NCBI GenBank assembly: GCA_002696315.1
Contig: NZRR01000042.1
Coordinates: forward strand, 4,293 to 57,304
Direction of reading: 5' to 3'
Length of the DNA stretch: 53,012 nucleotides
Source of the DNA: Methanobacteriota archaeon
Lineage (GTDB): Archaea; Thermoplasmatota; Poseidoniia; Poseidoniales; Poseidoniaceae
The notes under the pieces were generated by a model that searched no databases, was not told where the DNA came from, and worked only from the letters and a program-made list of their open reading frames with translations. A program made the translations under genes and the position numbers. Shown here piece by piece: positions 32,289-44,587 of this stretch (position 1 is the first letter of the stretch; every line of letters begins with the position of its first letter).

Positions 32289-32915
32289 ATGGAAAATTCT
32301 CGTAGACCAAAATTACTACTACTTGCGGGTGTAAATGGCGTTGGAAAATCCACACTTTCAATGGAAATTGCTAATTTTTTAGGAATAAAAAGAGTAGTTT
32401 CTACTGATTCAGTACGTGAGGTTTTACGCTCAAAAATTGATTCACTAGAATCTCCGGAATTACACAGAAGTACATTTAGTGTTGGAAGACACAAACATCC
32501 GGTTTATGATTGGGAAGAATGTAGTAATATTCTTTCAGAGGGTATTAATTCAATTATCGACAAATCAAGAAGAGAAGGTGTAGATTTAATTTTAGAAGGG
32601 GTACATCTTAAACCCAATAATGAAATTATTAGAAAATGGGAAAATGCAGGAGGAGTAGCAATTGGTACAATTCTTTACGTACATAATGAAGAAAATCATA
32701 AACAAATGCTAGTTACTAGAGAAAAATACACATGGAGAAATGCTGAAAGATATCTAAGTTCTTTTAAAACAATTAGAGAAATTCAAAATGGAATTCTTGA
32801 AATTGGTAAACCATTGAACTGGAAAACTATTGATTTATCAACAGGAATAAATGCTGTAAACGAAATCGCACATTGGTTTGATTTAGAATGGAATCGTGCT
32901 GAACAAAATCTATGA
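32289..32915 (+). CDS. 2-phosphoglycerate kinase-like P-loop kinase
   Basis: The protein has 208 residues. The Walker A is AGVNGVGKSTLS, followed by VVSTDSVREVLRS and the conserved HRSTFSVGRH, with LILEGVHLKP acting as Walker B. This matches the archaeal 2-phosphoglycerate kinase group (COG2074), which makes 2,3-diphosphoglycerate, precursor of the cyclic compatible solute in some methanogens. The N-terminal ATP-cone found in longer members is absent. No cyclic 2,3-diphosphoglycerate synthetase is in the window, so the physiological product is uncertain. The 3' end overlaps the convergent pilin-like gene by 6 nt. Confidence 0.8.
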   Translation: MENSRRPKLLLLAGVNGVGKSTLSMEIANFLGIKRVVSTDSVREVLRSKIDSLESPELHRSTFSVGRHKHPVYDWEECSNILSEGINSIIDKSRREGVDLILEGVHLKPNNEIIRKWENAGGVAIGTILYVHNEENHKQMLVTREKYTWRNAERYLSSFKTIREIQNGILEIGKPLNWKTIDLSTGINAVNEIAHWFDLEWNRAEQNL

Positions 32916-33344
32916 AATGGTATAACTCGCTGATAGAGGTAATTCTATTATCGAATCAGAAACAACATTTAAGATAATATTTACTGTAACATTATTTTCA
33001 TTTACAATTATTTCCTTTTCAGAAAAACTAAATTGAATTCCTCTCAAAATTCCGTGATTTTTAATATCTGATTCTATTGTTTCTAGAGAATCTAATGTTG
33101 CATCATTCAAATTCATTCCTGTGTCAAATCGTATCTGAGTCCTATTTTCCAAAATTGGTAAAAACATAGATTCAACCTCTTCAGTGGCATCTAATACGTC
33201 ATTAACATCGCTGGTTCTTGGTAAATCGTAGCCTGCAACCTTAACTCCGTACAAAGACATTGATAGTAGACTCATCAATAGAACTAAACCTGCTGCTAAT
33301 AACATTTGGGCTGATTCGTCATTAAACAATTCTTTTTTCTTCAT
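32910..33344 (-). CDS. Pilin-like membrane protein, last gene of pilus operon
   Basis: The protein has 144 residues. It starts MKKKELFNDESAQMLLAAGLVLLMSLLSM: a short basic head, then one N-terminal hydrophobic helix, then a soluble extracellular domain of about 110 residues rich in Asn and beta strands. This is the shape of an archaeal type IV pilin-like or minor pilin protein, although a clear prepilin peptidase site is not evident. The start is fixed by a strong AAGGAGGTGGAG site and by a 4-nt ATGA overlap with the gene before it. The operon context with the pilus ATPase and TadC-type proteins supports the call. Confidence 0.65.
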   Translation of the reverse strand: MKKKELFNDESAQMLLAAGLVLLMSLLSMSLYGVKVAGYDLPRTSDVNDVLDATEEVESMFLPILENRTQIRFDTGMNLNDATLDSLETIESDIKNHGILRGIQFSFSEKEIIVNENNVTVNIILNVVSDSIIELPLSASYTIS

Positions 33345-33799
33345 ATTGCTCCACCTCCTTGGCTCCATACATCAAGAGCAATACTCCAAATAATTCCTGT
33401 GTCTTGAATAATAAGATATGATGTTACACTATTTCCAATAGGAGAGCCACTAAATCCAGAAATATCCATAGATCCACTATTTTGAGCCACCCAACAATTC
33501 GCTTCATATGTTGAAGGCAATCCTTGTTTTATGAAATCACAAGCATTATTATAATCATCTAAAGATAATAATTCTGTTAATTTAGAAGAATGATTTGTTG
33601 AATCAATGGCTGGTTCACTAGCAGCCAAATCAAGTGCATCTCTACCTGCCATAGATAATGATGCATCAATTATTTCGGAATTCGAATCAGGAACATGAAT
33701 ATTTATTACAAACATTGCAGACATGAAAAATAACCAAAATAATGTTAACATTTCAATAACATGTACTTGAGCACTTGTATCTGAAGAAAGCTTACGCAT
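33341..33799 (-). CDS. Pilin-like membrane protein (DUF7288-like)
   Basis: The protein has 152 residues. After MRKLSSDTSAQVHVIEML comes a hydrophobic helix (about residues 14-32, TLFWLFFMSAMFVINIHV), then an extracellular domain with two cysteines (CDFIKQG and CWVAQN, 15 residues apart) that may form a disulfide. The SAQVHVIEM head resembles small proteins coded beside archaeal pilus motors in other euryarchaea. It is likely a pseudopilin or scaffold of the secretion apparatus. ATG start, 16 nt after the TadC-type gene; its stop overlaps the next start. Confidence 0.65.
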   Translation of the reverse strand: MRKLSSDTSAQVHVIEMLTLFWLFFMSAMFVINIHVPDSNSEIIDASLSMAGRDALDLAASEPAIDSTNHSSKLTELLSLDDYNNACDFIKQGLPSTYEANCWVAQNSGSMDISGFSGSPIGNSVTSYLIIQDTGIIWSIALDVWSQGGGAI

Positions 33800-33815: not shown

Positions 33816-35387
33816 TTACGTTATCCTCAACATTCCAATCGATGGATTCAAACCTGGACTCGATGGAACTCCAATCAAAGAAGGGATGAATGAAATAAAC
33901 GTAAACGAAACTATTGCTAAAACTAACATCATTCCTGCATGTTTAAACCCTGAGCTTAATCTTCCATTCGCCATTAGACCAGCCATTGCCCCATTTCCTA
34001 ACGCTTGCATAGTAACTCCATAAAAGAAAACTACCAAGAATAATAACGGATCTATAGCTCTAATTTGCATATTTCCAATCTGTGCTGATGAATCTCCTCC
34101 AGAACCAGTATTTGATTCTGCAATAGCGGGAATAAATACTCTGGAAAGAATAACAATAACAATCATGAAAACTAAATAAGATACCCAAATTACTGCAATA
34201 TAAGACGAAATAGTCCTACTTCTCTCACCTTCTAAGAATTTAATTTCTCTACTATCACTTGCAGCTGTTACAAGAATATCTGAAATTTTACCACCTGCCT
34301 TATTCGCTTCGGAAATCAGAGAGACCGCTCTTTTAACCAATGGTGTATTTACTCTTGCTGCGAATAATTCCAATACATCTCCAAACGCTACACCCCAACT
34401 AATTTGATTAGACATCTTCTTTACATCATCATTTAATGCACCGTATTCAGAGTTAGCAAGTGATGTAACCGCAACTGTCATCGATAAACCTCCTTTCCAA
34501 TATTCTGCTAAATCTCTTAAGAAATCTGGAAACTTTTCTTCCCTTGCGTTAATATTTCTTTGGACTCTATCCCAATAAACTGAAGCGGGATATATCATCA
34601 AAAAGAAGGCAAAGCCAAAGAAATTGATATAAATCGTAGGATGTAATGAGAAACCACCTAATTTTACTTCAGGACCTATCCATTGTGATTTATTGTTCAT
34701 ATAGTTTGGAACTCCATCATAAACCATTGCAGTAACTGTAAAACTAAATTCAAAGTCTGGAGCAGAAGTTACACCTTCAGGCCATTCTGGAATTAATCTA
34801 ATTTGATACTCTCCAGGATCTGCATGTTCAATCAAAATACTGCAATCATCATCGTTAGCTCTGCCAATATGTCTCCAACTATCACCAGGTAATTGTTCAT
34901 CTTCATCCAAGATACTGACTGTATATTCTAAAGAAGGGTAATCTAATGATTCTGCGGTACAATCAACTCTTAATTCTTGTAATGGATGAGATTTACCAGC
35001 AAGCTGTGAATCTTTTAATCCAGGAACCTGAAAAGCCCTAGCCTTTCCATCCATTCCTTCCCACGGATCATCTAAAACCCACTCAGCGGGTGAGGGTGAA
35101 TCTGTTAAAATTGAACATGTTTCGTTATCTTTGTATGATGTTTCTAACCCTAACCTAGCATTTGCAAATGGTTCAGGGTTTGGATTACCAAATTCATCTT
35201 GAGCTGTTGCTTGACAATAAGTACTTACAAAAAATGGTAAAGCCGCATCATCATTTCCAGGCATAAAATTACTATTTGTAAACCAAAAACCCATACACAT
35301 TAATCCAAGAATAATTGAAACTGTACAAATCAAATAGAAATAAGTCATGGTTGTATCATCTTTAGGAAGATCCAAATCAACCTTCAA
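33816..35387 (-). CDS. TadC/GspF-type pilus assembly membrane protein with extracytoplasmic insert
   Basis: The protein has 523 residues. The C-terminal half (about 265-520) is a type II secretion F domain: a cytoplasmic helical bundle with DRVQRNINAREEKFPDFLRDLAEYWKGG and the LISEANKAGGKISDILVTAA segment, flanked by hydrophobic spans near 250-270 and 400-425, plus further C-terminal spans. Between the first span (about 13-32) and the F domain lies a soluble region of about 200 residues with cysteines, predicted outside the membrane. That insert is not part of normal TadC or ArlJ proteins. It should form the inner-membrane platform turned by the ATPase. The start is TTG 35387. No ATG or GTG exists in frame upstream, where the frame is closed by a TGA, so the start is not fully certain. 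Confidence 0.82.
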   Translation of the reverse strand: MKVDLDLPKDDTTMTYFYLICTVSIILGLMCMGFWFTNSNFMPGNDDAALPFFVSTYCQATAQDEFGNPNPEPFANARLGLETSYKDNETCSILTDSPSPAEWVLDDPWEGMDGKARAFQVPGLKDSQLAGKSHPLQELRVDCTAESLDYPSLEYTVSILDEDEQLPGDSWRHIGRANDDDCSILIEHADPGEYQIRLIPEWPEGVTSAPDFEFSFTVTAMVYDGVPNYMNNKSQWIGPEVKLGGFSLHPTIYINFFGFAFFLMIYPASVYWDRVQRNINAREEKFPDFLRDLAEYWKGGLSMTVAVTSLANSEYGALNDDVKKMSNQISWGVAFGDVLELFAARVNTPLVKRAVSLISEANKAGGKISDILVTAASDSREIKFLEGERSRTISSYIAVIWVSYLVFMIVIVILSRVFIPAIAESNTGSGGDSSAQIGNMQIRAIDPLLFLVVFFYGVTMQALGNGAMAGLMANGRLSSGFKHAGMMLVLAIVSFTFISFIPSLIGVPSSPGLNPSIGMLRIT

Positions 35388-35423
35388 TTTATTTTTCTTT
35401 TTCCTAGCGATTTCATCACCCCC

Positions 35424-36479
35424 TCACATATTTTGATCTGCCGACATCGCCCAAACTAAATATCCATAAGCGATATGAATCATTGGTAAAAATCCTAACA
35501 CAATAAAGTAAAGCGTACTTTCATCCATTGTAGAACCAGAACCACTTACCCAAAACATAATTACAAGCATTACCAATAAAAACAGAGGCATAGCTACTGC
35601 GACAACTACATACGATTCAGCAAGCATCGCTAATGTTTCTAAAAATACATGTAATCTTGTTCTATTTTCTCTCATATAGTGTTCGGCGCGATTTAAGAAA
35701 TATATCTTAAGATTACCACCTGCCGTCAAGGTACCTTCCATTCCTTGAAAGAACTCAGTTAACCAAGGAGATGCTGCTCTTCCTACAGACATTTTAATAG
35801 CGGTAACTAAATCATACCCTAGAAGATTAGTATCTCTATATATTTGTGCGGAATCATGAGAAATCTCCCCATAAATTTCCTTATTCTGCGCTAATGAACG
35901 GAAAATTTTCTGAGGAGTAGCATTAGCTGCAGACATTGCAGCTGTATATGATGCGGCATAAGGAAGATATTTTTCAATATCTTTTGATCTCATTTCTGCT
36001 GCTCTTTTTGCACCGCCCATGAAAGTTCGATATGCCAACAATGGACCTAAACCAAGGGTCAATACAGGAATCATTATTTTCAAAGCAGCTGGGAAAGATT
36101 TAGTTGCGTAGTAGGGGCATCCACCATATTGTACTTCTCCGAACTCGTCAGAATTTACCCCCCAATTAAGGTTATAATCAATCTCATCTGAATGCCAATA
36201 TGCCCAATCTACACAAAGAGGTATTGAAACTGGATCTTGAATATTTTCGTATAAGGCAACACCCCCTATTCCAGGCATGAAAACCAAAGCGTTTATTCCA
36301 ACGATTATTCCTATTGTTGCAATTGTAGACAATATACTTGTTGCCATAAATACTTCTGGCATTATATTTAAATTTCCTTTTTCAATATTGCCGGATAATT
36401 CTTTATCTCCTCTAGCCCTTTTTCTTAAAAGACCACCTAAAAGGCGATGGCCTATCTTCTGCCAGGCATTTAATTCCAT
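35424..36479 (-). CDS. Second TadC/GspF-type pilus assembly membrane protein
   Basis: The protein has 351 residues. Membrane spans lie near 42-72, 135-155, 284-310 and 322-345. The cytoplasmic F domain includes MRSKDIEKYLPYAASYTAAMSAANATPQKIFRSLAQ and FFQGMEGTLTAGGNLKIYFLNRAEHYMRENRTRL. A loop of about 60 residues (about 75-135) with two cysteines sits outside the membrane. Together with the next gene it supplies two platform subunits, as in Tad systems (TadB/TadC). The ATG is preceded by AAGGAG. It starts 10 nt after the ATPase gene. Confidence 0.85.
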   Translation of the reverse strand: MELNAWQKIGHRLLGGLLRKRARGDKELSGNIEKGNLNIMPEVFMATSILSTIATIGIIVGINALVFMPGIGGVALYENIQDPVSIPLCVDWAYWHSDEIDYNLNWGVNSDEFGEVQYGGCPYYATKSFPAALKIMIPVLTLGLGPLLAYRTFMGGAKRAAEMRSKDIEKYLPYAASYTAAMSAANATPQKIFRSLAQNKEIYGEISHDSAQIYRDTNLLGYDLVTAIKMSVGRAASPWLTEFFQGMEGTLTAGGNLKIYFLNRAEHYMRENRTRLHVFLETLAMLAESYVVVAVAMPLFLLVMLVIMFWVSGSGSTMDESTLYFIVLGFLPMIHIAYGYLVWAMSADQNM

Positions 36480-36489
36480 TTTAATCTCC

Positions 36490-38022
36490 TTACACTAAAC
36501 CATCTACACGAGCGAGAACTTGTTCAGGTCTAACATAATATTCAGTTATAATTTGAGATACCTGATCTGATTTTCTGATGTCATTTAACACCATCCAGTC
36601 GAGTACACGCTTTCGAGTACGTAATTCTCTACGCATTTCATCTTGTGAATAATTGATTTTAACCATTATTTTCTCTAAAACATAAGATTTACCACTAAAG
36701 TCGAAGTCATCCCTTGATGGATCCCATTTGAAAACTTCATTAGTGATTACTTCCATTGAATTAGGGTCTATACCTACAATTTCCACAAGTTGTTTACAAC
36801 GCCTAACACGTTTACCATTTATTCTAGTTTGAATTTGAATTGCACATGCTTCCAAAGCAGGAAGAAGAACACGCGGAATATCAATTGGTTTATTTTCTAA
36901 TCTGTGAACTAGAGAAGGTACAGAATCTGCGTGTACTGTTGAATAAGCACAGTGTCCTGTAGCCATTGCTTGGAACAGTACGTATGCTTCAGCACCACGA
37001 ATTTCTCCCACGATGATATATTCTGGACGTTCTCTAAGAGCTGCTTTTAATAGTTCGAATTCTCCAATCTCTCCTTCATTAGATTCTCCACCAAAACCTT
37101 GACGAGTTAATCCAGGAATCCAATTAGGTTGTGGTATGTTAACTTCTCTAGTTGATTCAATACTTACAATCTTCATTTGCCAAGGTATAAAAATACACAT
37201 AGCATTTAATGTTGTAGTCTTACCTGAAGCCGTACCACCCACATATAGCATAGAAACGCCTTGTTGGAAAGCCACCCACAAATAAGCCACCATTAAACTG
37301 GTCATTGTTCTAAATGCAATTAGATCACAAGGTGAAAATGGATCATCACGGAAACGTCTAATACAGAATGTTGAACCTCTTGTTGAAATTTCATGTCCTA
37401 ATTTCATTACAATTCTAGAACCGTCCATTAATGTTGCATCTAATAGGGGTTCAGCTACAGAAATGTGTTTTCCACAACGTTGAGCAAGTTTAATGATATA
37501 CGCTTCTAATTCTTCATCTGTCTCCCATTTAATTGTGGTTTCAACAGACTCAAACTTTCTATGGTATCCAAAAATTGGAATATTTACTCCATCTAATGAA
37601 ACATCCTCAATATTAGGATCTGACATTAAAACATCCATTTTTCCATATCCTAGTAAATCCCTACGTAGATAATAGAATAGTTTAGATTTTGATTTTTTAT
37701 TAATTTTCATACCATATGATTTGATAACTTTATCCATAGATGTTCTAAGATATGCAGCAGCATCCGCTTCAATATCTTCAATACTAGCATTCAAACTTTT
37801 CACAAAAATATCCATAATTTCTTGACGATATTTTTCTTCTTTTTTGGATAGTGGTGGTTCGATTACTTGGTATAAAATATTCAATGAACGTCTATCACGT
37901 ACAACCCTAGCAAAGGCATGTGGCGGCCTTACAGGATACTTGTCTAATTCATCATAATTTCTTTTATCTGCACCGGCATTTTTTCTTCGCCTCTGGCCCT
38001 TCCCACGTCTCTTCCTAGCCAA
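36490..38022 (-). CDS. Type II/IV secretion-pilus ATPase (TadA/ArlI/GspE family)
   Basis: The protein has 510 residues. A basic N-terminus (ARKRRGKGQRRRKNAG) is followed by the N-terminal domain and the RecA-like motor. The Walker A is YVGGTASGKTTTLNAM (about residue 260), the Asp box lies just after it, the Walker B is RPEYIIVGEIRGAEAYVLFQAM, and the His box is ATGHCAYSTVHADS. It hydrolyses ATP in a hexamer to drive pilus assembly or protein secretion across the membrane. It is the first gene of the motor operon, followed by two TadC-type proteins and two pilin-like proteins. TTG start with GGGGTGAT 4 nt upstream. No archaellum-specific genes (arlH, arlB) are present, so a pilus or Tad-type adhesion role is favoured over motility. 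Confidence 0.93.
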   Translation of the reverse strand: MARKRRGKGQRRRKNAGADKRNYDELDKYPVRPPHAFARVVRDRRSLNILYQVIEPPLSKKEEKYRQEIMDIFVKSLNASIEDIEADAAAYLRTSMDKVIKSYGMKINKKSKSKLFYYLRRDLLGYGKMDVLMSDPNIEDVSLDGVNIPIFGYHRKFESVETTIKWETDEELEAYIIKLAQRCGKHISVAEPLLDATLMDGSRIVMKLGHEISTRGSTFCIRRFRDDPFSPCDLIAFRTMTSLMVAYLWVAFQQGVSMLYVGGTASGKTTTLNAMCIFIPWQMKIVSIESTREVNIPQPNWIPGLTRQGFGGESNEGEIGEFELLKAALRERPEYIIVGEIRGAEAYVLFQAMATGHCAYSTVHADSVPSLVHRLENKPIDIPRVLLPALEACAIQIQTRINGKRVRRCKQLVEIVGIDPNSMEVITNEVFKWDPSRDDFDFSGKSYVLEKIMVKINYSQDEMRRELRTRKRVLDWMVLNDIRKSDQVSQIITEYYVRPEQVLARVDGLV

Positions 38023-38134: not shown

Positions 38135-41100
38135 TCAATCATATTCCCAAAGACCATCCTCCTGTTCCATTTTCTGTCTGTAAATTCTTTTTTCTTCTTC
38201 TGTTACGAACCCATCTCCATCTAGATCAGCAGGATGTAAAGAAGGTCTTCTTGGACCACCAGATTGTTGCATTCTATACCCTGAATCATTACCACCTCTT
38301 CTACGTGGAGGGCCTTTGCGTTTACCTCTGCCAGGTGGACCTTTTCGACGCATTTGGGATAATTCTTCTTGTAAGCCTGCAACTGCCTCTCTAGTACCTT
38401 CCATTTCTTCTAACATTTTTTCATGTGATTCTACTAAATCCATTTCTGCAGCTGTTTCACGTACTTTTGTGGCCATATCCATTTCCCCAAGTTCGATAGC
38501 TCTTGTTTCTATTAGTTCCATCAAATCTCCAAATCCTCCTGGTGGTAATAGTTTCTTTTCGTTATCTTTTGTTATTCTTTTTTCAAGATTCTCTAATTCT
38601 CTACGACTTCTTGCTAATCTTATTTCTGAAGCATATTTTTCAACACGTTTAGATTTCCCTGCTAATGTTCTTTTACCAACGAATCTAATTACACCAAACA
38701 TCATACCTAATGCTGCAAACATAATTTCTAATGTTCCATCTGGAAGACCAAGTAATGAGTCAATATTCAGAATGAAATCTAATGCAGCGGCTAATTCTGG
38801 AGGAAGAGCGTCTAAGGTTGTACAACCAGTTTCATCAACATCTACTCCCTCATCGGTATCTGGACATTTATCTAAAATTGAACCATCTTCATTGAAATCA
38901 TTAACTCCATCCCCATCTGAATCAATAGCAGTTTCATTTGCAGTTTCATTTGCAGTCTCATTTAATGTGTCATTATTTGTTTCATTTAATGTATCGTCTG
39001 GTAAAATGACAGTGCAGCCGCTGGAATCTACAAAATCACCAGACGTTGTATTTGGACATTCATCCGCATTGTTTCCAATGCCATCATTATCATCATCGTA
39101 TTGTTCTGAAGGGTTATTAGGAAATGCATCTTCATTGTCACTAATACCATCTCCATCTGAATCAAAAAATAACGGACAACCATTGAACATATCTACTTCA
39201 GTACCATTTGGAGTTTCGGAACATTGATCATAAGAATCAGCTACTCCATCTCCATCACCGTCATCAAAAGAAATCTCACAACCATCAAAGTCAACTCCTG
39301 CTCCAAGTCTTGTTAGTAAACATGTATCATTAGAATCTGGTATGCCATCTGCATCGTCATCCCAGTCTTCAGTTTCATCAAAACAGCCATCATGATCATA
39401 ATCTGTACCCTCATCCCAAGAATTCCAATTAAATTGGCCTTTAGGACAAAGATCATTCTCATCGTGAATATTATCATTATCGTCGTCCCAATCTTCAATT
39501 TCATCATTACATCCGTCATTATCATGATCTGTTAATGGATTTGAAGACCATCCAGGGTAACCGCTTATACAATAATCATTACCATTATTTATACCGTCAT
39601 TATCAATATCAAATTCATGCCAATTAGATTTAGCCTCAAAAATTTCTATTTCACTAATTTTTAAATTAAAATCTAAATCAAGACATCTGAACATAATCTT
39701 TTGTCCGTGTTCAGCATGGAAATGGTATAATTCTGGGTTTTCATTTATTGGATGATACATATTCATTACAGTAATCCACCCATTTTGCTCATTCCATATT
39801 CTAATTTCTCCGCCAATATGTTTATTCGCATCATATGATGAAAATCCCCAAGTTATTTTCATAGCACCAATATAATATTCCTGTCCGAAATCAATCATGA
39901 TATCTTGATTCGAATCTTCACATGAATTGGCAGATTCCCAAATAGAGTTGAAATCATTATCAATCGCTTTCGGACCTGAATTTGTTTCCCACTCACTACT
40001 AACGTAAACATTCGCACCATCTGAGATGTCATTTGGGTAATAAGCATCCATCATACCTCCATTCCCAGAATTAGAGCTTTGCCATTTATGGATTTGGATT
40101 TCAGCTAATCCGACCGTTATATCCTCGGAATGTGAACATCTTACACTAATTCTACTGGCTTCTATTTTATCGAAAACATGAGGTATATTTCTACTCCAAT
40201 AATCAAGTTCTAAATATTCTGCATGTACATCTGAAACTAATTCCCAAGAATTATTTGAAGTCCAAGCCAAAATCTCATACCTTAGAGGAATATTGGGTGG
40301 ATTTATCCACTCTAAACTTACCCCTGAAACTAAATGGAAATTTCCACTATCATAACCGGGAAGATTAATGATTATTTCTTGTGAATCAACTTGACAAGAT
40401 TCTCCAGATTCCCAAAATGTATCGTAATTATCATCTACAGCTAAATGTCCTTCATTACCCTCTATTGCTGAAGAGACCCATGTTGAACCTGTTTCTAAGT
40501 TAGAACTCCATTCTACCTCGGAACGATCAACTACATTATCTGAAAGATATAAACAACCAATTTTATCGTCGAAAATGTTAGCATCTAAATCCCTCAATTC
40601 TAGTTCTATACACCACGTTTCGTATCTAACAATTGAATGGAAATCTGCAAAATCAAGATTATAATTTACTATATTTTCAGAATTTAATGATAATAATGGA
40701 GTAGTTCCTGTGATAATATTTCCACCATTAGATCGAGTAACTCGATAATCAACCTTCACCGTTGATACCCCTTCTATGTTAACTGATGCATGTAAAAATA
40801 GTTCGAGACTTCCATATTCAGAGTCTTGATAAGGATTCCAAATTATATTTGAATTAAGATAAGTATCACCCTCACCAGAATTATCATCATTAGAAGCATC
40901 TTCAACATTTAAAAATTCACATATCCCATCTAAACTGACTGTATCTGTAGAAGCTTGCTCTCTAATATCAACATAAATACAATATTCAAGTTCACCAGTT
41001 GGGAAATTCATTTCGATTAATTCTCCTATACCTAGTACATTTGTTTCTAAATCAATCGTTAAATGTCGGCTATATGAAGAAAAAGGTTGATTATTTCCAG

Positions 41101-44100
41101 GATTAAAGATTTTTACATAATAATTGAATTCATGTAAGCCACCATACATAGACTCTCCATTCTGCAACGGCAAATCAACGAAAATTTCTAAATTTGCTTC
41201 GTCAATTCCATCATTATTGAAATCACCCCACTCCCAATTAAGTGAAATAGCTAAATTTTTCAATTCATCTGTTGACCACATAAATCCTGCATCTATACAA
41301 GTAGCTTCAGTAACAAAAGAAAATTCAATATCCTTTTCAAAATAATCATAACAGAAATGAATTTCATTATCATCATGTTCAGAACCTGTATAATGGACTT
41401 CATCAACCTCTAAGGGTATTTTATAGCTCGTTCCAGGATAAGGCTCCCATTGAGACATTACTCCTAATGATGTATAATCTTCAGATGTTACCCAAGCGAA
41501 ACTTTTCCCATCAAGAATATCATAATCTGAATCATCTAGAGCATTAATAACTTGTTCAGTGTCATACCATGTGTCTTCACCATTCAAATGATAAGCCATC
41601 CAAAAACCATTAATACTATCCCATGCTATCAAATAATTATTATCCTCATTCCAATATGAATAATAATCTCCTCCAGCTTGAATAGTTCTAGAGTATCCTG
41701 ATCCTGTTACGTAAAAAGGTGACTTAACTACATCATACACTGCATTAAATTTCTCTGGACCTCCATTTCCAGATAATGTTAGTTCATCTTGGGCATAACC
41801 TCCACCTACGCAGATTCCACCTTCATTGATTTCCCAAAGGTCTGGATTTAAAGGATCGCAATCAATTGCATCTAAAATTCCATCGTTATCATCGTCTAAA
41901 TCTTGATTATCACACAAATCGTCTTGATCGAAATCTGACCATTCTGAACCATCAACTGGACAATGGTCTTGGAATAGAGCGTATCCATCTCCATCTATAT
42001 CTTCGTAAATATCTACAAATGAAATATCCATTTTAACTCCAGAACTATCAAACATTCCAAGCCAATCATCCTCTTCAAATACTAAATCATAAAATACTTC
42101 CAAGTTAGATGTTTTAACTATTTCAATTAATGAACCACAAAATTCAGTAATAGGTCCATAACTAGTATTTTGAGTGCCCTCAATAAGTCCAGATGCACCT
42201 CCTAGAAAACCATAATGTCCTGCATCTACCCATTCTCCTCCAATAACAATATCAGTGTTATAATCTAAATCAGGAGGGTTGTCATATGCTCCAGGTGTAT
42301 CAAAAGCAAAACTTCGAAAACTCTGATTTACATTATAATGGATTTCAAATACTGAATCGACTTGACCTTGATGTACCATTAGTCCTACAGAGTTCATTGG
42401 AAGATAATCGCACGGATCAATTATTTCTATATCATTATTCTCTCCATTATTGGGGTCATTAGGATGCGAGTCAGTGCCATCGGGAATACCGTCCCCATCA
42501 GTATCAATTTCGTTAGGGTTAGTTCCCAATTCATATTCTTCAAAATTTGATAAGCCGTCTCCATCCATATCTTCGACATCGTCTCCAATTCCATCACCAT
42601 CTGTATCTGGAGATGTTGAACTAATGTCGTTGAAGCTATCTTCCCATGAATCTGGTAAACCATCACCATCAGAATCTAATGGACCTGATGTAAAACCATT
42701 AGAAGGTAAAGCAGTAAATCCTGAAGGTACAGAGTATTCAACTTCACCAGAAGTTAAGATACGATATGTATGTCCTCTATTATTAGAAGAATCTGTAACT
42801 GCAGGATATACTGTAGTATTTGCTAGACCGTTACTACCGTATTCAGAATCCCAAGCTGCTAAATTTCCATTAGAATCTTCTCCAAATATTGGTATTGCAC
42901 CAGTACTAGGTTCTAGATTAGAAGTACCAGCAGGAGCAATCCATTGACCGTCAATAGAATACCACATATTTCCTGCTTCATTATCAAGTGCTATTCCTAT
43001 ATTTCTAAAATCATCATGTGACCAGTTTGTTAATGCATCTATTCCCGAAGTTGGATTTTGTGCTTCATTGTGATATAAGTGACCTGCATCATCTAACCCC
43101 CATCCATTAACATCCGTGCCAAGTCCCATTGGCGCTAGGGCTGCAGATCCTGTATGAACTCCAATTATATTCCACATCTCATTACTTCCATCTACTTGAA
43201 TTTCGAATTCCCAGTACCATTTGCCTGGAGGAATTCCGATATTCATGATGGAACTTCCTGAACCTGAACCAGACGTGGTAGATTCGGGATCATCAAAATA
43301 TGAGATATATTCTCCATCTGTGCTGAAACTAAATCCATTACCAATAGATTTTTGATTATCCCAACACCATTCATTAGAATCACAACCTGAAAAACCTGAA
43401 GCTGGACTAAAAATTGTTTGAGCAGCTGTGTAAGCATTGCTATCTTGAGCCGCTTCTTGAAATTGGACATCATAGCAATAATATTGACCGTATTGTAATT
43501 CTACAGGATATGCAAAAGGATCATTACTACCAATCAAGAAATCTTCAAGCATTATGGGATTCCCATTGTAAGCACCACCAACATAAAGACTGGCATCTTC
43601 GTGATGCAAGTGACCTCCAGATTGATCACAAATTGAGGAATTAGCTGTAACAATCGCAGGGTAAAGATATTGATCATAATTATAAGCAGTATTTGCAGTA
43701 AGATTTGTTACTTGAGTTTTACCAATATGTAGACCTGTTTGTGGGTGAGGAGGATATACAGCATGAGAAGAAATGGTTGGACCTGAAGTCGGCGGATTAT
43801 TTCCTCCTGAATTACCTGGCGGCGGACCAGTACAGGCTGTATCAAATGTCGTTAATACAGAACCTGTATCTAAATTAGTTAATGCTACCTCAATAAAGTA
43901 ATCCCCTGTTAAATATTCTCTAAAGGCCATAGAATATTCCCATTCTGTTGAAGAAGCAATCCATTCTAAGTATCCATCTGTTACTGTAGTGTTAGAAGGA
44001 CAATCTATTAGCCACCAATTGACTCGGTAGTGTGTTCCAACTACAGCATTTTCTAAATCAAGTTCTATAGTAGGCATAGTATCTACACTAAAACTGTCTA

Positions 44101-44587
44101 CGGAACTATTCTCACACCAAGAATAAAAATATGGAGATGAATCTGATTGATGTCCTGGTGAAGGAGCATCTCCATTACCAGTATTGAAACTATCATATAA
44201 ACAAAAGTTAGAACTATTACCATCGTAAGCTCTTATATCACCATTGTAATATCCCCAATTCGATGATGAATTAATTTGATGAGTATCCATCCAAAGTAGT
44301 GTTTTATCTTTATATTGGTTATAGAAGATTCCTTTTTCTGAAGGATCCATACCATTAATTTGCTGATTGTAACTTAGTTCATGCCAAATCTTAGTATAAT
44401 TTCCTGTAATATCTTGGGCATCAGAAGCATAATCAGTTACTGAAATCTCTGATACTCGATTCTCCCAAGTAACACTTGCGAACATAATTTCAGCCCTTCC
44501 CTCTGTAGCACTAGCCATAGGGGTTAAAGGAGTGAAAATCATTAAAAAAATTACAAAAAATAGCGTCGGAACTCTGGAACGTTTCAT
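38135..44587 (-). CDS. Giant secreted adhesin-like protein (2150 aa) with SPRY, TSP3 and discoidin domains
   Basis: A signal peptide (residues about 8-28) leads into beta domains. A SPRY/B30.2-like domain lies near 420-600 (GKWYWEFEIQVDG, NIGIALDNEAGNMWYSIDGQW). Thrombospondin type-3 calcium repeats (DxDGDGxxD) follow at about 640-720 and 850-920. Two F5/8 type C (discoidin) domains occupy about 1365-1505 and 1520-1660, and more type-3 repeats lie at about 1665-1930. A short NETA repeat near 1885 precedes a transmembrane span at about 1950-1970. The cytosolic end has a Glu/Arg-rich coiled coil (about 1990-2085), an RKGPPGRGKRKGPP stretch and an EF-hand-like loop DLDGDGFVTEEE (about 2126). It probably binds glycans and calcium at the cell surface. 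The pilus ATPase gene starts 112 nt downstream on the same strand. Confidence 0.88.
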   Translation of the reverse strand: MKRSRVPTLFFVIFLMIFTPLTPMASATEGRAEIMFASVTWENRVSEISVTDYASDAQDITGNYTKIWHELSYNQQINGMDPSEKGIFYNQYKDKTLLWMDTHQINSSSNWGYYNGDIRAYDGNSSNFCLYDSFNTGNGDAPSPGHQSDSSPYFYSWCENSSVDSFSVDTMPTIELDLENAVVGTHYRVNWWLIDCPSNTTVTDGYLEWIASSTEWEYSMAFREYLTGDYFIEVALTNLDTGSVLTTFDTACTGPPPGNSGGNNPPTSGPTISSHAVYPPHPQTGLHIGKTQVTNLTANTAYNYDQYLYPAIVTANSSICDQSGGHLHHEDASLYVGGAYNGNPIMLEDFLIGSNDPFAYPVELQYGQYYCYDVQFQEAAQDSNAYTAAQTIFSPASGFSGCDSNEWCWDNQKSIGNGFSFSTDGEYISYFDDPESTTSGSGSGSSIMNIGIPPGKWYWEFEIQVDGSNEMWNIIGVHTGSAALAPMGLGTDVNGWGLDDAGHLYHNEAQNPTSGIDALTNWSHDDFRNIGIALDNEAGNMWYSIDGQWIAPAGTSNLEPSTGAIPIFGEDSNGNLAAWDSEYGSNGLANTTVYPAVTDSSNNRGHTYRILTSGEVEYSVPSGFTALPSNGFTSGPLDSDGDGLPDSWEDSFNDISSTSPDTDGDGIGDDVEDMDGDGLSNFEEYELGTNPNEIDTDGDGIPDGTDSHPNDPNNGENNDIEIIDPCDYLPMNSVGLMVHQGQVDSVFEIHYNVNQSFRSFAFDTPGAYDNPPDLDYNTDIVIGGEWVDAGHYGFLGGASGLIEGTQNTSYGPITEFCGSLIEIVKTSNLEVFYDLVFEEDDWLGMFDSSGVKMDISFVDIYEDIDGDGYALFQDHCPVDGSEWSDFDQDDLCDNQDLDDDNDGILDAIDCDPLNPDLWEINEGGICVGGGYAQDELTLSGNGGPEKFNAVYDVVKSPFYVTGSGYSRTIQAGGDYYSYWNEDNNYLIAWDSINGFWMAYHLNGEDTWYDTEQVINALDDSDYDILDGKSFAWVTSEDYTSLGVMSQWEPYPGTSYKIPLEVDEVHYTGSEHDDNEIHFCYDYFEKDIEFSFVTEATCIDAGFMWSTDELKNLAISLNWEWGDFNNDGIDEANLEIFVDLPLQNGESMYGGLHEFNYYVKIFNPGNNQPFSSYSRHLTIDLETNVLGIGELIEMNFPTGELEYCIYVDIREQASTDTVSLDGICEFLNVEDASNDDNSGEGDTYLNSNIIWNPYQDSEYGSLELFLHASVNIEGVSTVKVDYRVTRSNGGNIITGTTPLLSLNSENIVNYNLDFADFHSIVRYETWCIELELRDLDANIFDDKIGCLYLSDNVVDRSEVEWSSNLETGSTWVSSAIEGNEGHLAVDDNYDTFWESGESCQVDSQEIIINLPGYDSGNFHLVSGVSLEWINPPNIPLRYEILAWTSNNSWELVSDVHAEYLELDYWSRNIPHVFDKIEASRISVRCSHSEDITVGLAEIQIHKWQSSNSGNGGMMDAYYPNDISDGANVYVSSEWETNSGPKAIDNDFNSIWESANSCEDSNQDIMIDFGQEYYIGAMKITWGFSSYDANKHIGGEIRIWNEQNGWITVMNMYHPINENPELYHFHAEHGQKIMFRCLDLDFNLKISEIEIFEAKSNWHEFDIDNDGINNGNDYCISGYPGWSSNPLTDHDNDGCNDEIEDWDDDNDNIHDENDLCPKGQFNWNSWDEGTDYDHDGCFDETEDWDDDADGIPDSNDTCLLTRLGAGVDFDGCEISFDDGDGDGVADSYDQCSETPNGTEVDMFNGCPLFFDSDGDGISDNEDAFPNNPSEQYDDDNDGIGNNADECPNTTSGDFVDSSGCTVILPDDTLNETNNDTLNETANETANETAIDSDGDGVNDFNEDGSILDKCPDTDEGVDVDETGCTTLDALPPELAAALDFILNIDSLLGLPDGTLEIMFAALGMMFGVIRFVGKRTLAGKSKRVEKYASEIRLARSRRELENLEKRITKDNEKKLLPPGGFGDLMELIETRAIELGEMDMATKVRETAAEMDLVESHEKMLEEMEGTREAVAGLQEELSQMRRKGPPGRGKRKGPPRRRGGNDSGYRMQQSGGPRRPSLHPADLDGDGFVTEEEKRIYRQKMEQEDGLWEYD
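38929..38992. repeat. Tandem 12-nt-type repeat coding NET(A/N)
   Basis: About 65 bases within the giant gene consist of near-identical 12-nt units (agtttcatttgc on the plus strand) that decay at one edge into related units (tgtttcatttaa). They encode a chain of NET triplets, each a possible N-glycosylation sequon, just before the last calcium repeat. Coordinates are approximate. Confidence 0.55.

Follow-up and report, generated by a model that had tools for sequence, protein, structure and literature searches.

Cuniculiplasma divulgatum is a Thermoplasmatota archaeon. The platform of its pilus is encoded by two genes, CdiPFa and CdiPFb, which match the N- and C-terminal halves of AapF and are described in an operon with two ATPases (PMC12448462). 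Bacterial Tad pili likewise have two single-domain platform proteins, TadB and TadC, whose origin has been ascribed to gene fission (PMC10191384). ArlJ/FlaJ and AapF belong to the same GspF superfamily and are fused. Platform proteins, called the most poorly characterized core part of type IV filament machines, are described as having in general a small external loop (PMC10191384), and short periplasmic loops are predicted for AapF (PMC11178815). Here we analyzed a window of 53,012 nucleotides from an archaeon of the Poseidoniales (Marine Group II; assembly GCA_002696315.1, contig NZRR01000042.1, positions 4,293 to 57,304 of the forward strand). Members of this group have been described as the most abundant archaea in the plankton of surface ocean waters, and particle attachment is discussed for them (PMC6461757). 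The minus strand of the window carries a pilus-like operon in the order ATPase, P0002, P0001 and two pilin-like genes. P0001 and P0002 encode a split platform, each half of which carries a large insert that is predicted to lie on the outer side of the membrane. Their features are as follows (aa, amino acids; ORF, open reading frame; TM, transmembrane segment).

33816..35387, minus strand: P0001, a TadC/CdiPFb-like C-terminal-half platform protein of 523 aa, assigned from its ORF, a T2SSF match and alignment to the ArlJ model
34638..35276, minus strand: insert of P0001, aa 38-250, a predicted extracytoplasmic region with cysteines C58, C91, C143 and C182
34719..35099, minus strand: predicted beta-sandwich inside the P0001 insert, aa 97-223, from the AlphaFold2 model and VIA-align matches
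34671..34718, minus strand: membrane-proximal conserved motif of P0001, aa 224-239, consensus D-G-[IV]-P-x-x-M-N-N-K-S-x-W-[IL]-G-P, with no confident model
34146..34523, minus strand: cytoplasmic GspF (T2SSF) domain of P0001, aa 289-414, from Pfam and a match to PilC (2whn)
35424..36479, minus strand: P0002, a TadB/CdiPFa-like N-terminal-half platform protein of 351 aa, assigned from its ORF, a T2SSF match and alignment to the ArlJ model
36090..36275, minus strand: insert of P0002, aa 69-130, with C89 and C121
35568..35948, minus strand: cytoplasmic GspF (T2SSF) domain of P0002, aa 178-304, from Pfam

Both proteins contain one T2SSF stretch, scoring 47.8 bits in P0001 and 46.1 in P0002 against a curated cut-off of 25.2 (Pfam). 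On the 555-position ArlJ model NF004704 of NCBIfam, P0002 aligns to positions 45-225 and P0001 to positions 313-543. Each does so as a single domain and misses the NCBIfam cut-offs for ArlJ (best scores, 61.3 of 400 bits for P0001 and 59.7 of 550 for P0002). This alignment of P0002 to the N-terminal half and of P0001 to the C-terminal half, far under the cut-offs, identifies the pair as a split platform and not as ArlJ itself. ArlJ/FlaJ and AapF thus align half by half with P0002 and P0001 and differ from them in being fused. In structural comparisons by VIA-align, the cytoplasmic domain of the P0001 model matched PilC (2whn_B; Z score 13.4, 2.3 Å over 102 residues), and the cytoplasmic helix bundle of P0002 gave a weak match only (3jc8_Ca, Z 5.2). 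Judged by their sequences, P0001 and P0002 are GspF/T2SSF platform proteins encoded by two adjacent genes, the halves of one split platform.

The likeness to CdiPFa/CdiPFb is drawn from the published description. The consulted sections of that description mention no extracytoplasmic domain (PMC12448462), and the operon studied here has one ATPase instead of two. Compared with bacterial TadB and TadC, P0001 and P0002 are set apart by their large TM1-TM2 inserts. No Pfam match to the Tad accessory proteins TadZ, TadV or the RcpA secretin was obtained in the ten ORFs scanned at the locus, the rest of the genome not having been searched for them.

Hydropathy places TM1 at aa 19-37 of P0001 and aa 49-67 of P0002, and TM2 at aa 252-270 and 131-149, respectively, so that neither protein has the usual short external TM1-TM2 loop; the region between the two segments spans about 213 aa with four cysteines in P0001 and about 62 aa with two in P0002. 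Conservation was assessed in 45 non-redundant P0001 rows (the window and 44 of 74 full-length orthologs) and 38 P0002 rows (the window and 37 of 73). All 45 P0001 rows keep the domain, at 183-215 aa, and the stretch matching the P0002 insert measures 53-65 aa across the 38 rows. The number of cysteines in the P0001 insert is even in every row, four in 43 and two in 2. The alignment positions of all four are shared by 34 of the 45 rows; in 9 others a new cysteine 6-8 residues before C182 takes the place of C143, and the two-cysteine rows (L142 and L103) lack both C143 and C182. In P0002, C89 and C121 are both kept in 38 of 38 rows. Since cysteines change in pairs, the presence of disulfides in the inserts is a well-supported prediction; in P0001 the expected pairs are C58-C91 and C143-C182.

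The GspF domains of platforms face the cytoplasm (PMC10191384), and the TM1-TM2 loop upstream of them should therefore be outside. The distribution of lysine plus arginine (K+R) points the same way: per 100 residues, the P0001 insert contains 5.4, compared with 30.3 for the N-terminus and 25.0 for the 15 residues after TM2, and the corresponding values for P0002 are 3.8, 20.1 and 30.4. Together, charge bias, paired cysteine changes and the cytoplasmic GspF domains make a location of both inserts outside the membrane well supported. The initial annotation of this DNA had described extracytoplasmic, cysteine-bearing inserts of about 200 and about 60 residues in the two platform proteins. Their sizes and cysteines were confirmed and proved to be conserved in orthologs, and a cytoplasmic placement, which would have contradicted it, was not predicted.

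In P0001, mean pairwise identity is 77.6 percent for TM2, GspF domain and TM3 together, 39.9 percent for the whole insert, 47.7 percent for its helical part and 30.5 percent for the sandwich, which is the fastest-evolving part measured (median distance 1.33; P0001 core, 0.31). Identity is 69.0 percent over aa 224-250, the 27 residues that lead up to TM2 and include the DG[IV]PxxMNNKSxW[IL]GP motif. A fixed base with a variable head suggests a constrained contact near the membrane and an outer surface that varies with a partner or with the environment.

Structures of both proteins were predicted with AlphaFold2, as the initial annotation had proposed. The P0001 model, built on the 45-row alignment, has a mean predicted local distance difference test score (pLDDT) of 76.4 and a predicted TM-score (pTM) of 0.65. 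Its insert consists of an N-terminal helical part followed by eight strands between residues 99 and 222, with pLDDT block means of 79-89 for aa 51-200, 74 for aa 201-210 and 88 for aa 211-220. Foldseek on P0001 returned beta-sandwich chains from 1e-3 down, and VIA-align then separated the domains. The insert was closest to a domain of the subtilase Tk-SP (Z 11.6/11.5, 2.7/2.1 Å, 103/100 residues), the GOLD domain of TMED1 gave Z 9.9 over residues 99-222, and many beta-sandwich chains scored lower. Wntless, the only Foldseek match of P0001 at E <= 0.001, had a TM-score of 0.14 and was taken as spurious. That most of the P0001 insert is a beta-sandwich is thus a well-supported prediction of the model. 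The fold is common to the Tk-SP subtilase, GOLD and collagen-binding domains (Z 8.3-11.6); no sequence relationship to these was detected by Pfam or a PDB sequence search, and the likeness says nothing on function. Assignment of the insert to a known sequence family was rejected as well: Pfam on 40 inserts gave only scattered weak matches (the best, 1e-4, to Glyco_hydro_32C in one member), the PDB sequence search found nothing below 0.12, and NCBIfam had no match for the insert of the window.

In the P0002 model (pLDDT 75.0), the insert is predicted to form two short helices and a hairpin, with block means of 81-86; parts of the GspF domain of this model fall below 60. The whole P0002 model, insert included, gave no Foldseek match at E <= 0.001 and no VIA-align match at Z >= 8.

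Of the 145 genomes of the order, 80 gave a match at E < 1e-30 for P0001 and 80 for P0002, a few of these matches being partial. For P0001 they comprise 66 of 72 genomes in the family of the window and 14 of 73 in the other, if the 27 unlisted, unmatched genomes are assigned to the second family, as the list order implies. Another 18 genomes of the order matched P0001 weakly, in most cases through ArlJ-sized open frames of about 600 aa. We then looked for the insert domain elsewhere, a search also suggested in the initial annotation, with a profile of the insert alone (A5). This profile matched 49 of 284 Thermoplasmatota genomes, all of them Poseidoniales, once in each and always at the P0001 gene. 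The domain was thus not seen elsewhere in this sample, nor as a free-standing protein, and in the genomes searched it is restricted to the Poseidoniales.

Profiles of the whole proteins reach further, with matches in 200 of 292 genomes of the phylum for P0001 and in 200 of 284 for P0002. The P0001 matches listed for genomes outside the order start past the insert, at roughly position 224-275 of 529. Profile matches of the P0002-type relatives fetched from outside the order break at the insert in 32 of 33 cases, with a median of 17.5 residues against 45-77 model positions, the 33rd being a fragment. Hydropathy analysis of the P0001-type genes in 33 regions fetched from other Thermoplasmatota gave 14 with a polytopic N-terminal part, 7 with a loop of 53-86 aa, 10 with a loop of 4-35 aa and 2 that were not assigned. 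Within the genome of the window, ArlJ (C19) has no insert, and the TadB/TadC-like pair (C44), whose sequence contains ambiguous residues, shows none. The earlier statement that normal platforms lack such regions thus stood for these proteins, for the 32 P0002-type relatives and for AapF, and did not stand for the seven P0001-type relatives with loops of 53-86 aa, by which an enlarged loop is not unique in kind. Homology of the P0001 insert to these loops was not supported, the hhalign probability being 0.1 against five of the seven.

Some P0001 relatives are very long. That they might carry large soluble ectodomains was dismissed, as the 14 polytopic proteins have, by hydropathy, 10 or 16 TM segments when counted from the N-terminus through TM2. 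Such polytopic fusions to a TadC-like gene occur at loci L181, L183-L185, L188-L191, L197, L200-L202, L204 and L205, and no clear Pfam family was found for this part in the five proteins scanned. The P0001-type relatives at L176-L180 belong to three families, one of them in the same class; by eye, their loops have in common a motif like DxDxDGxxDNPxxxxDGPFTI that is suggestive of calcium binding.

A split GspF platform was already known, and a folded external domain on a platform appears to be new as far as the open-access literature searched goes. No description of one was found in the parts of that literature consulted, which is not proof that none has been reported. A platform with its own folded external domain would open a way to study the outer face, where subunits enter the filament, and the means by which archaea that have no known alignment complex keep their pili steady. 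The insert domain could also serve as a taxon-specific marker of the pilus locus in metagenomes.

The remaining genes of the operon bear on what the inserts may do.

36490..38022, minus strand: assembly ATPase (T2SSE), first gene of the conserved five-gene block, FlaI/PilB3-like and under the curated cut-offs of both models
33341..33799, minus strand: pilin-like single-TM protein with two cysteines and a conserved [AG]Q[IV]H..E where the TM begins
32910..33368, minus strand: second pilin-like single-TM protein, with a conserved [AG]QMLL where the TM begins

An assembly ATPase and platform genes thus stand together, as in a type IV filament operon. A search with P0001 found 211 loci, and in the best 80, the named ones, P0001 is always accompanied by P0002 and the two pilin-like genes; the ATPase is present in 76, and the other four (L067, L083, L096 and L145) begin within P0002. 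Neither pilin-like protein matched a Pfam or NCBIfam family, and both are called pilin-like by position and N-terminal motif. We take this motif to resemble that of haloarchaeal minor pilins. One of five pilin-like proteins gave a weak Pfam match to DUF7262 (E 0.03, below cut-off).

We favor, with about even confidence, the view that the inserts build an extracytoplasmic collar into the split platform that guides or anchors the base of the filament; this function itself is inferred. On the cytoplasmic side, the GspF domains would couple to the ATPase of the adjacent upstream gene, and the TM helices of both halves would form the exit site for the pilin-like subunits. Each half would have gained an extracytoplasmic domain in its TM1-TM2 loop. 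That of P0002 would comprise some 60 residues with one likely disulfide, and that of P0001 a small helical part and the beta-sandwich, with two conserved sequons for N-glycosylation and two likely disulfides, the strongly conserved segment linking it to TM2. The collar at the outer face of the platform may surround, guide or steady the base of the emerging filament and perhaps touch the cell coat. In a review model, a platform trimer holds the pilin in a hollow shaft and passes on the motion of the ATPase (PMC10191384). With their roots in TM1 and TM2, the external domains of the two halves would surround the pilin exit, and this is why a collar is favored; the strongly conserved segment next to TM2 beside the divergent sandwich fits a fixed membrane contact with a variable outer surface. 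Genes for PilMNOP, the bacterial alignment complex, are reported to be absent from archaeal pilus clusters (PMC11178815), and the ten ORFs scanned at the locus gave no Pfam match to them. More tentatively, the two inserts might form a ring around the filament base, a counterpart in function to PilMNOP or ArlF/G; going by the literature searched, in the parts consulted, this would be the first platform recognized with its own folded ectodomain. This stronger version is rather doubtful.

Several observations count against a collar. No partner of the inserts was identified, and no major pilin was recognized in the locus. In the P0001 model, aa 221-250 before TM2 are poorly modeled (pLDDT block means 56-70), both top subtilase matches include a small number of residues outside the insert (up to position 516 of the model), and the pTM of the P0002 model is 0.48. 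Sequons of the P0001 insert are conserved (N88 in 45 of 45 rows, N232 in 43 of 45), which, with an STT3-type gene in the genome, would fit an outside location. Sequons in the cytoplasmic GspF domains are conserved as well, however (P0002 N186 in 38 of 38 rows, P0001 column 377 in 42 of 45), and none of the 38 rows has a sequon in the P0002 insert. Sequons therefore count little for location, and their use as proof of an outside position is weakened. Relatives elsewhere have short loops, hence the inserts are not needed for platform function in general. Co-evolution of the inserts and pilin-like proteins is also ambiguous. In a first test on 57 loci, the P0001 insert and the ectodomain of the pilin-like protein at 33341 had a partial r of 0.40 (0 of 500 permutations). 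In a second test, on 39 loci with a quadratic control and with the ATPase and cores as controls, the insert gave 0.27/0.26 with the pilin-like ectodomains and 0.24 with an unrelated neighbor. Adding neighbor genes as a control lowered the values for the pilin-like ectodomains to 0.12/0.15. As an unrelated neighbor gives a similar value, co-evolution was dropped as evidence for pilin contact, and it does not separate collar, anchor and docking from one another. The two inserts correlated with each other at 0.28 and 0.22 in the same 39 loci, with no significance figure attached.

The best-surviving alternative, which we regard as unlikely, is an envelope anchor or stator: the inserts would tie the platform to an S-layer or other glycoprotein coat, and the envelope would bear the force on the pilus. 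ArlF/ArlG play such a part for the archaellum, which they fix to the S-layer (PMC8978795); the five genes of the operon lack an ArlF/G match in Pfam and NCBIfam, while the separate archaellum operon of the genome has an ArlG match below cut-off. Pili of Thermoplasmatales are made without an S-layer (PMC12448462), which makes other anchoring devices conceivable. Against an anchor, no coat protein partner was identified, with no examination made of the Poseidoniales envelope, and many relatives do without inserts.

Less likely still is a pilin-docking domain that transiently binds a pilin-like ectodomain and feeds the filament, a role put forward in the initial annotation. The constant presence of two pilin-like genes beside the platform pair, the position of the inserts next to the presumed exit site and the first co-evolution value would suit it, but most of that value is lost once neighbor genes are controlled for. 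A little less probable again is a surface decoration that takes no part in assembly and serves as a fast-evolving shield or binds sugars, ions or surfaces. The fold matches include a secreted subtilase domain and collagen-binding domains, the sandwich evolves fast, and the platforms at L101 and L104 bear a further, C-terminal extension on the predicted outer side; yet the segment before TM2 is strongly conserved and the domain is kept in all 45 rows. These extensions (L101:5319-5663 and L104:11477-11821) measure about 90 aa, look immunoglobulin (Ig)-type by eye and gave no Pfam match over cut-off. A long loop inside normal TadC-type variation, of which the 53-86 aa loops of 7 of 33 relatives might be instances, is very improbable, given the hhalign result, the predicted fold, the paired cysteines and the length held within 183-215 aa. 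The collar thus remains our preferred reading among those considered.

The start of P0001 may lie upstream of the listed TTG. An ATC at 35409-35411, 8 codons upstream, gives 531 aa and is preceded, by eye, by a ribosome-binding-like stretch; four close relatives have TTG (L066) or ATG (L067-L069) at the aligned position. This ATC is probably the true start, either as a rare start codon or through a sequencing error.

The genome contains two more filament loci, L207 and L208: an archaellum operon and a TadA/TadB/TadC-like locus with ambiguous residues. In the archaellum operon FlaI scores over its cut-off, and the matches to ArlG, ArlH and full-length ArlJ fall below theirs. The STT3-type match, at L212 (G000:C17:14399-15184), falls within a 3250-aa open frame, a great length for an oligosaccharyl transferase.

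Upstream of the operon, 38135-44587 encodes a 2150-aa surface-type protein with F5/8 type C and SPRY matches and a weak TSP3 match, situated between the ATPase and a kinase-like gene. Among the 80 loci, a relative of this protein stands at the same place in L066, L068 and L069, which are near the window, and two further loci give only short matches, at other places. In many other loci, the kinase-like gene lies directly upstream of the ATPase.

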